Shown in pieces: positions 4,415 to 30,326 of a stretch of 64,000 bases of DNA (within the stretch, counting starts at the first letter, position 1; every line of letters begins with the position of its first letter). Source of the stretch: Akkermansia muciniphila (GTDB lineage Bacteria; Verrucomicrobiota; Verrucomicrobiia; Verrucomicrobiales; Akkermansiaceae); contig CAMDAD010000012.1 of NCBI GenBank assembly GCA_945888515.1, positions 1 to 64,000 on the forward strand. Direction: 5' to 3'. The notes beneath the pieces were generated by a model. It saw only the letters and a list, made by a program, of their open reading frames with translations. It did no database searches and was not told the origin of the DNA. The position numbers were made by a program, and so were the translations under genes.

Positions 4415-4442
4415 TTGACATCGCCGCCCGACTGATTAGGAT
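4415..4442 (+). promoter_or_regulatory. Predicted sigma70-type promoter, leaderless
   Basis: TTGACA (4415-4420) is separated by 16 bases from TAGGAT (4437-4442). The start codon of the DUF3127 gene at 4449 is six bases further, where transcription would begin, so the mRNA would have almost no leader. Confidence 0.55.
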
Positions 4443-4448
4443 GATTTC

Positions 4449-4850
4449 ATGTATGAGGCAAAAGGCAGCATGAAATGGATCGGCGAAACTCAAACCTTCG
4501 CCAGTGGTTTTACCAAACGCGAGTTCGTGATCACCACCCAGCACGACAAATACCCACAGGACATCAAGTTCGAGATCGTCAAAGACAAGTGCCCTCTGCT
4601 CGATGAATTCCCCGTCGGCTCTGACGTGACGGTATTTTTCGATATCCGCGGCAACGAATACAACGGCAAGTATTACGTTAACCTCGCTTGCTGGAAGCTA
4701 CAAAACGCGGGCGACGCAGGAACGGAGCCGCGCCCTTCCCAACGCAGCGCACCGTCCGCACGCAGCACCGCACCATCCCGCCAAAGCGAGCCCACCGCCG
4801 CAGACCTGCGCAATGAGTCGGACTTCGATGACGACGACGTGCCGTTTTAA
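4449..4850 (+). CDS. DUF3127 protein with SSB-like acidic C-terminal tip
   Basis: This 133-residue protein contains a DUF3127 domain in residues 1 to about 90 (MYEAKGSMKWIGETQTFASG, FFDIRGNEYNGKYYVNL), a family thought to adopt an OB-like fold and to bind nucleic acid. Residues 90 to 120 are a Pro/Ser/Arg-rich flexible linker. The last residues read DFDDDDVPF, almost the same as the DDDIPF tip by which single-strand binding protein recruits repair and replication enzymes. The overall plan (beta domain, disordered linker, acidic tip) is that of SSB, so I infer a single-stranded DNA-binding or SSB-mimicking role. It ends four bases before the convergent topoisomerase gene. Confidence 0.8.
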   Translation: MYEAKGSMKWIGETQTFASGFTKREFVITTQHDKYPQDIKFEIVKDKCPLLDEFPVGSDVTVFFDIRGNEYNGKYYVNLACWKLQNAGDAGTEPRPSQRSAPSARSTAPSRQSEPTAADLRNESDFDDDDVPF

Positions 4851-28109: not shown

Positions 28110-30326
28110 GTGCCCAATGCCCGCGTGTTGATCGATGGACCATCCGAACTGGTCTTCGATTATTCGTTTCCCGATGAACTGCCCGTTCGTCCGGGATGTC
28201 GGGTACGTGTGCCTCTGCGCAATCGCGATGCGACTGGCACGGTGCTCTCCACCGCCGCCGCCGAGGATCTCGGCTTTGCCACCCGCCCGCTCCACTCGCT
28301 GATCGATCCCGAACCGCTGCTTACCTCTGAGTTGTTAGAACTGGCCCGCTGGATCGCCCAATACTACGGATCCAGCATGGAGTCGGTCATCCGCTCACTG
28401 CTACCGGAATCTGTGCGCTCGGAAGAGCACAGCGCCAAGTCGCAAAAATTCGTTAGTTTGCTGAAAACACCACCACCGGAACTCCTCGAATCATTGGGGA
28501 AAAAAGCGCCGAAACAGCAACTCATTCTGACTCGTTTACTGCGCGAGCCTGATCAAAAAATCCTTCTCGCCGAGCTGGGCAAAGGAGCCAGCACCTCCGT
28601 GAAAGCTTTGGAAAAAACGGGACTCGTCGTTGTGCAAGAAGAGGCTGTCCGACGCGAACCAGATGCCGATTTGCAAGAGCAAATCATCGAATCTCAGCCA
28701 CTCGCACTCCATGCCGAACAAGCCCAGGCCTTGTCGGTCGTCCGCAACTTGATCGATACCCCTAGCAAACCGCTCTTGTTGTTAGGTGTCACGGGCTCGG
28801 GAAAAACGGAAGTGTATCTGCAAGCGGCACGTTACTCACTCGATCAAGGGAAAACGGTTCTCGTATTAGTACCTGAAATTTCTCTAACGCCGCAGACGGT
28901 CCGACGCTTCAAGGCGCGTTTCGCCGCATTGATCGATCAGGTGGCGGTGTTGCACTCACACTTGTCACAGGGCGAACGTTTCGATGAATGGCATCGCATC
29001 CGCAACGGCAAAGCACGCATCGTCATCGGCGCGCGCTCGGCAGTTTTCGCTCCCCTTCCCGATCTCGGTCTCATCCTCGTCGATGAAGAACACGACAACT
29101 CCTACAAACAAGACACCACCCCGCGCTACCACGGTCGCGATGTTGCGGTGCTGCGTGCCCACATCGAAAAATGCGCGGTCGTGCTGGGCTCGGCGACACC
29201 TTCGTTAGAAACTTTTCACCACTGCCAAGAGGGGAAATACTTGCTTCAGCGGCTCAACCAACGCGCGGATTCCCACTCGATGCCGCTCGTCCGCGTAATC
29301 GACATGCGACTAGAGCAGCAAAAGCAAAAAAACAGCAACACCATCTTTTCCGATAAACTCCGCCAAGCGCTGGATGTTCGACTCGAACGCGGCGAGCAGT
29401 CCATCCTTTTTCTCAATCGCCGCGGCTTTGCTCGTTCTTTGCAGTGCCCCGCTTGCGGCCATGCCTGCCAGTGCCCGCATTGCGCGATTGCCCTTACCTA
29501 TCACCGTACCGATGAGCGCCTCATGTGCCACATCTGCGGCTATCAATCGATCGTTCCACGCAAATGCCCCGAGTGCAAAGACCCCTCTATCGCCTTGCAA
29601 GGGTATGGGACGCAGAAGGTGGAGGAGGTCCTCGCCAAGCTCATTCCCAAGGCCCGCGTCGCCCGCATCGATGCCGATGCCATGCGCAAAAAAAACACCC
29701 TGCGCGACATGCTTAACGCCTTCAAGGCGAAGAAGATCGATATCCTCATCGGCACTCAAATGATCGCCAAAGGACTGCATTTTCCCAACGTAACACTCGT
29801 CGGCATCCTTAACGCGGACATCGGACTGCACGTCCCCGATTTCCGAGCCTCCGAGCGCACCTTCCAGCTCATCACCCAGGTCGCCGGTCGAGCGGGTCGC
29901 GGCGAACTGGAAGGCGAAGTGATCGTGCAAACCAGCACGCCTCACGCCCCTGCGATTCAATACGCTCGACGCCACGACTTCGATGGTTTCAGCGAGCAAG
30001 AATTAGAGTTCCGTCGTGAATTTCATTTCCCGCCCTACGGTCGTTGTGCCGTGCTCACCGTGCGCTCCACACACGAGAGACGCGCGGAGTTCACCCTGCA
30101 GACCCTGCACCGTCGTCTCGAAGAAAACAAACCCAAGCACCTCACGATCAGCGAACCACTACCCAGTCCGCTGATCCGCTCCCACGGTCAATTCCGCTTC
30201 CAAATCACCCTCCGATGCCCCCAAGCCCGCCCCCTCACCAATCACGTTCAAGCCGTGCTTAACCGCACCCCGCTGCCGGAAGACGTCATCGCCACCTTCG
30301 ACATGGACGCGATTAATTTTTCGTAA
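28110..30326 (+). CDS. priA: Primosomal replication restart helicase PriA (N')
   Basis: A 738-residue superfamily 2 helicase that recognises abandoned replication forks and reloads the replicative helicase. It starts with GTG (MPNARVLIDGPSELVFDYSF). The N-terminal 3'-end-binding domain covers about the first 100 residues, followed by a winged-helix region. Helicase motifs are intact: LLGVTGSGKTEVYLQ (Walker A), LVDEEHDNSYKQD (motif II), VLGSATPS (motif III) and QVAGRAGRGELEG (motif VI). Eight zinc-binding cysteines occur as CPACGHACQCPHC, CHICGY and CPEC. Length is normal. A well-formed promoter sits immediately upstream and predicts a leaderless mRNA. Confidence 0.97.
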   Translation: MPNARVLIDGPSELVFDYSFPDELPVRPGCRVRVPLRNRDATGTVLSTAAAEDLGFATRPLHSLIDPEPLLTSELLELARWIAQYYGSSMESVIRSLLPESVRSEEHSAKSQKFVSLLKTPPPELLESLGKKAPKQQLILTRLLREPDQKILLAELGKGASTSVKALEKTGLVVVQEEAVRREPDADLQEQIIESQPLALHAEQAQALSVVRNLIDTPSKPLLLLGVTGSGKTEVYLQAARYSLDQGKTVLVLVPEISLTPQTVRRFKARFAALIDQVAVLHSHLSQGERFDEWHRIRNGKARIVIGARSAVFAPLPDLGLILVDEEHDNSYKQDTTPRYHGRDVAVLRAHIEKCAVVLGSATPSLETFHHCQEGKYLLQRLNQRADSHSMPLVRVIDMRLEQQKQKNSNTIFSDKLRQALDVRLERGEQSILFLNRRGFARSLQCPACGHACQCPHCAIALTYHRTDERLMCHICGYQSIVPRKCPECKDPSIALQGYGTQKVEEVLAKLIPKARVARIDADAMRKKNTLRDMLNAFKAKKIDILIGTQMIAKGLHFPNVTLVGILNADIGLHVPDFRASERTFQLITQVAGRAGRGELEGEVIVQTSTPHAPAIQYARRHDFDGFSEQELEFRREFHFPPYGRCAVLTVRSTHERRAEFTLQTLHRRLEENKPKHLTISEPLPSPLIRSHGQFRFQITLRCPQARPLTNHVQAVLNRTPLPEDVIATFDMDAINFS

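Follow-up and report, generated by a model that had tools for sequence, protein, structure and literature searches.

We put forward evidence that a DUF3127 protein encoded by Akkermansia muciniphila is a second, accessory single-stranded DNA-binding protein (SSB), predicted to coat single-stranded DNA (ssDNA) and to dock the partner proteins of SSB through an acidic C-terminal tip, a reading to which we assign a probability of roughly 0.8. The gene lies at positions 4449-4850 of the window, the 64,000-nucleotide stretch of DNA that was analysed. The original prediction had offered two possibilities for its product, competition for the partners of SSB or a role as a second SSB, and the second is the best (predicted) reading in view of a conserved tip, a canonical ssb gene elsewhere in the genome and a predicted OB fold whose nearest structural neighbours are SSB and PriB.

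The open reading frame (ORF) extends on the forward strand from an ATG start to a TAA stop and encodes 133 amino acids ending in ...RNESDFDDDDVPF, confirming the presence of a DUF3127 ORF with an SSB-style acidic Pro-Phe end at this position. A Pfam scan of the protein assigned residues 3-84 to PF11325 (DUF3127; E 3.9e-24, 85.1 bits against a cut-off of 27) and returned no other family up to E 10, and NCBIfam gave no match up to E 0.01. The PHROGs profile phrog_4932, labelled 'single strand DNA binding protein', matched residues 3-133 over profile positions 2-117 of 117 (E 9e-26). The gene and the parts of its product are as follows:

4449..4850, forward strand: DUF3127 gene, predicted accessory SSB of 133 residues (ORF; PF11325 E 3.9e-24; phrog_4932 E 9e-26).
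4455..4706, forward strand: OB-type domain, about residues 3-86 (predicted strands and helix; nearest folds among the matches listed SSB and PriB).
4707..4820, forward strand: poorly conserved, low-confidence linker, about residues 87-124 (pLDDT; majority-residue frequency).
4821..4847, forward strand: acidic tip DFDDDDVPF, residues 125-133 (read from the ORF; kept in relatives).

The genome (54 contigs, 3.36 Mb, 97.5% complete) contains a single DUF3127 match. In the window (contig C12, 1-64000), a polysaccharide deacetylase gene and a gene for a topoisomerase subunit flank the DUF3127 copy, which we assume to be chromosomal. A promoter-like sequence, matching the consensus only (TTGACA, a spacer of 16, TAGGAT; 10/12), is found on the forward strand at 4415-4442; it stops six bases 5' of the DUF3127 ATG and, if used, would yield a nearly leaderless transcript.

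The N-terminal part of the protein, originally described as a small beta domain, can be specified further as a predicted OB fold. The AlphaFold2 monomer model, built with 51 sequences, has a mean pLDDT of 81.8 (block values of 89-96 through residue 80) and places strands at residues 2-16, 22-30 and 38-44, a helix at 45-53 and further strands at 59-71 and 74-86. This strand-strand-strand-helix-strand-strand order corresponds to a predicted OB fold, and residues Q15, G20, F21, K23, V27 and G68 within it are invariant across 51 diverse sequences. When the model was compared with the PDB, all 50 Foldseek matches listed were SSB or PriB (best E 1.9e-5), and all 50 matches listed by VIA-align 2 were SSB, mitochondrial SSB/Rim1 or PriB, headed by yeast Rim1 (Z 12.4, rmsd 2.3, 87 residues aligned).

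Fold by itself does not show function, PriB having the same fold, and the structural comparison also leaves room for an alternative in which DUF3127 would be a PriB-like primosomal protein, an OB dimer that contacts both ssDNA and PriA during replication restart and has its tail as an extra tether. PriB (primosomal replication protein N) belongs to the same fold class and has a similar domain length, and in VIA-align 2 its structures are interspersed with those of SSB at equal Z (1woc_C 12.1 and 4fdb 11.9, with Salinibacter SSB at 12.0). A gene for a PriA-type helicase, a kind of enzyme known to partner SSB, is located in the same window (28110-30326, forward strand; PF17764 match at 28122-28406), and no PriB match above cut-off was found in the genome. 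The PriB model (TIGR04418) did return one match below threshold in this genome, but it was to the canonical ssb gene, with none at 4449-4850. According to PMC8509808, moreover, PriB is without the SSB C-terminal domain, and an artificial PriB carrying an SSB tail has been studied; DUF3127, in contrast, possesses a tail and a tip, and outside the domain no part of it is better conserved than the tip. Of the four annotated phage copies, finally, two have an ERF or RecT annealing protein nearby. On this evidence we consider a PriB-like protein unlikely.

The resemblance to bacterial SSB (PF00436; SsbA, SsbB) lies in the predicted OB fold, the disordered-looking linker and the acidic Pro-Phe tip, and the domain, of about 86 residues, differs from it in having no detectable sequence kinship. 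A profile-profile comparison of 27 DUF3127 domains with 18 SSB domains from the sampled genomes gave a probability of 0.4%, and no SSB chain was present among the four PDB sequences matched by the DUF3127 domain profile up to E 10. Of three phmmer matches in the PDB, one was an SSB (3tqy_A, E 0.66), and its alignment covered only linker and tail. In the genome itself, a PF00436 search recovers a single gene, distinct from that at 4449-4850. DUF3127 is thus SSB-like in plan and fold and falls outside PF00436.

Between domain and tip, the original prediction had placed a Pro/Ser linker. A linker of about 38 residues (about 87-124) is indeed present; its composition, read from the translation, is rather Ser/Ala/Pro/Arg-rich. 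The pLDDT falls to blocks of 51-69 from residue 91 onward, the mean majority-residue frequency across 39 sequences is 0.32 in the linker versus 0.71 in the domain, and the tail beyond the domain is anywhere from 30 to 103 residues long among DUF3127 copies, a pattern that suggests a disordered linker. Its length exceeds the minimal linker of 11-20 residues discussed for E. coli SSB in PMC10164576.

The tip is nearly identical in sequence to that of E. coli SSB (SSB-Ct), given as DFDDDIPF in PMC10164576, according to which the last Phe and the acidic residues of the tip are received by pockets on the partner proteins of SSB. An end of this kind might arise by chance, and the bare DNA pattern [DE][DE]xPF-stop proves nothing alone, since it is no commoner in the 3.36 Mb of the genome (6 occurrences) than in the reversed control (8). 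Four of the six occurrences end frames of more than 100 residues, encoding the canonical SSB, DUF3127, a PcrA/UvrD-type helicase and a hypothetical protein, and the longer pattern DFDDDD[x]PF occurs once, at DUF3127, against none in the control. The helicase (L267; G000:C1:112137-112154, reverse strand) ends in SWDDEDEPF, by its sequence a further acidic Pro-Phe tip of the SSB kind, here carried by an enzyme and not by an SSB.

Conservation among orthologues is the decisive evidence that the tip is more than chance. Within the order sample (57 genomes, including the one studied here), DUF3127 is carried by 38 genomes in 39 copies, and every copy terminates in Phe (34 PF, 4 DF and 1 RF). Per-position majority frequencies over 39 sequences reach 1.0 for the last residue and 0.87 for the preceding Pro, making the tip the best conserved part of the protein beyond the DUF3127 domain. 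Among named genome loci, 79 of the best 80 of 423 end in PF and one in RQ; these loci, and likewise the best 80 of 112 viral loci, were ranked by a query containing the tail, which biases both sets toward copies bearing the tip, and the nearest of the named loci belong to metagenome bins labelled Verrucomicrobiae, Akkermansia or Akkermansiaceae. The phylum sample was located with the tail-free Pfam domain model, and from the 100 places listed 40 loci were picked by hand for their spread over families and fetched; 39 of these frames are complete and every one ends in PF, and the remaining one is cut by the end of its contig. Complete frames were obtained for 79 of the 80 viral loci, 73 of which end in Phe (71 PF, 2 IF); counted as distinct sequences, 56 of 61 have a final Phe and 55 of 61 a final PF. 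Since the final Phe or PF recurs at these frequencies in tails whose length ranges from 30 to 103 residues, a coincidental Asp-rich Pro-Phe end is extremely improbable, even though the bare pattern is no commoner than its control.

The tip is therefore conserved in orthologues, and those lacking it, named at the outset as grounds for rejecting the idea, proved to be only some: besides the five order-sample copies with DF or RF and the single RQ locus, 6 of 79 viral copies are without a final Phe, three of them extending one residue beyond PF (PFD twice, PFN once), and of two Bacteroidota plasmid copies read, that of Parabacteroides ends in DDLPF and that of Hymenobacter has no tip. The DF ends are found in one family (f3: L020, L023, L031 and L032), where they account for four of five copies; these copies carry long Gly/Arg-rich linkers and share their genomes with an SSB that has an EIPF end.

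The original prediction had also proposed looking for a canonical ssb elsewhere in the genome, and one is encoded on contig C4, with a product of 157 residues whose C-terminus is DSGFQEEDDIPF (QEEDDIPF). PF00436 was detected in 54 of the 57 order-sample genomes, and the three without it (G012, G026 and G038; 69, 88 and 83% complete) also have no DUF3127. Conversely, all 38 order-sample genomes with DUF3127 carry a canonical SSB with a PF tip as well, which argues that DUF3127 is an addition to SSB and not a replacement for it. The sample contains 14 extra PF00436 copies, leaving out two contig-end pieces of one gene in G050. None of the eight that were read ends in PF (one has an acidic end without it), and seven of them belong to genomes carrying DUF3127; the other six are all in G049 and lie outside this tip count. 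The tip is hence not retained by just any OB protein, and DUF3127 is best regarded as a second SSB, one in which the tip persists, in contrast to those extra PF00436 copies that were read.

The two tips may also agree in detail. At position -4, a site picked post hoc after inspection of the data, the SSB and DUF3127 tips share one residue in all 10 genomes from the window's genus (shuffle p 0.003), including two E/E pairs, which come from sister genomes, and one A/A pair, and over the whole sample they agree in 27 of 38 (p 0.05). The count leaves out two entries: L076, retrieved with the DUF3127 query and in fact the canonical SSB of G037, and L039, the additional DUF3127 gene of G030. As far as tip sequences can tell, this agreement is a hint that both may answer to the same binding pockets. 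Candidate partners for the DUF3127 tip would be RecO and PriA, relatives of both being encoded in the genome; in addition to the PriA-type helicase of the window, a partial RecO_C match over cut-off was obtained (65 of 157 model positions).

Within the phylum Verrucomicrobiota, DUF3127 was detected in 98 of 288 sampled genomes and not found in the remaining 190, an absence that makes it look dispensable; copies also occur in Bacteroidota. Compared with bacterial SSB, then, DUF3127 co-occurs with the canonical protein and is patchy and apparently non-essential in the phylum. All 19 listed genomes of one genus (g3) are without DUF3127, and seven of the eight order-sample genomes of at most 2.4 Mb from the same family also lack it; the gene may have been lost in reduced genomes. 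No conserved DNA-metabolism neighbourhood was apparent among 80 bacterial loci, some of them cut by contig ends, a topoisomerase neighbour occurring at two and a deacetylase at three, so that the topoisomerase gene beside the window copy is uninformative. Two apparent fusions (L306 and L310, in frames of 642 and 829 residues) were rejected by eye as GC-rich open reading upstream of an ordinary DUF3127.

DUF3127 is found in phages as well. Relatives were identified in 94 of 50,697 phage records (E 1e-3), including 76 from Flavobacterium, 8 from Cellulophaga and 4 from Nonlabens phages. Among the 40 matches listed, 12 RefSeq records are annotated as single strand DNA binding protein, and GenBank phage records among the matches listed are annotated as hypothetical protein or, once, DUF3134. 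All four phage DUF3127 proteins scanned match phrog_4932, named SSB in PHROGs, and the window protein resembles this phage family over nearly its full length, tip included. The gene order in Nonlabens phage P12024S is ERF annealing protein, YqaJ exonuclease, DUF3127, primase; the gene is near RecT in Cellulophaga phage phi19:3, near primase/helicase and NinG in Flavobacterium phage morran9-1 and near NinG in Gundel_1. The window copy differs from these phage genes, which lie in recombination or replication modules, in being placed between the deacetylase and topoisomerase subunit genes. Across 33 non-redundant viral loci (a further 3 of 36 yielded no neighbours), ERF was the commonest Pfam family among the 25 of 51 families listed, accounting for 6 of 112 neighbouring ORFs; the signal is thin, the ORFs having been called mechanically, with those under 100 residues excluded (129 to 112) and a number of opposite-strand ones unlikely to be genes. 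One IMG/VR viral contig contains two separate DUF3127 genes (L198 and L228) with the same tip.

In a tree with few columns for its number of rows, the viral sequences require nine changes of label, at least five of them forced by supported branches, and judged from these sequences DUF3127 has been exchanged between phages and bacteria more than once, whichever the direction. The second DUF3127 copy of G030 clusters with a viral sequence in this tree and may be a prophage gene.

None of 36 phage records with DUF3127 has a PF00436 SSB, a count that comprises 32 IMG/VR contigs of at least 25 kb (possibly fragments) and four GenBank phage genomes and is a bare count rather than a depletion relative to comparable phages. 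This absence fits with DUF3127 taking the SSB role in phages. It also bears on whether DUF3127 might instead be a regulatory carrier of the tip, its OB domain binding a different target from ssDNA or no target at all, with the tip soaking up or blocking the partners of SSB. The case for it is that the tip is conserved, DNA binding being a prediction, and that an SSB tip peptide alone is able to bind RecG (PMC10164576). A domain this highly conserved, with its six invariant residues, and a predicted fold that is that of ssDNA binders nevertheless argue, together with the missing PF00436 in phages, against a mere carrier, and we regard this role as very unlikely.

The reading of DUF3127 as a second SSB is partly anticipated by phage annotation in PHROGs and RefSeq. 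In the literature searched, DUF3127 is named in one paper, PMC8004638, which describes gp25 of Pantoea phage AAS23 as an SSB with matches to both the DUF3127 superfamily and an SSB domain; gp25 has an HHpred match to E. coli SSB there, and we found no such sequence link for the present DUF3127 family. We found no study of a chromosomal DUF3127 and no mention of PF11325 in the literature searched, a search outside which most subscription journals fall.

As an accessory SSB, DUF3127 would oligomerise and bind ssDNA through its OB domain, as its fold and phage role suggest (bacterial SSB binds ssDNA as a homotetramer), and its tip would dock in the pockets that receive the SSB tip, which comprise a hydrophobic pocket for the last Phe and a basic lip and ridge. 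Working independently of the main SSB, the protein may in this way coat one kind of ssDNA, most likely incoming DNA or the intermediates of recombination or repair, and pass it on to host enzymes. In phages, DUF3127 would act alongside the phage-encoded annealing protein and draw host enzymes to phage ssDNA by means of this tip. A broader and doubtful extension is that DUF3127 constitutes an independent SSB lineage common to Verrucomicrobiota, Bacteroidota and their phages, a dedicated second SSB whose tip tracks that of the host SSB; cells would then pass a separate class of ssDNA to shared tip-binding enzymes, and phages would capture the same enzymes.

Our results provide a concrete, if predicted, function for a Pfam family still labelled as unknown and present in 98 of the 288 genomes sampled from the phylum. 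If the prediction is true, DUF3127 would be how phages P12024S, morran9-1, phi19:3 and Gundel_1, which have no PF00436 match, handle ssDNA, and many bacteria would run two SSBs with no recognisable sequence kinship and one common docking tip, in which case the choice of partner would have to be settled by the DNA-binding domain, by expression or by the linker.
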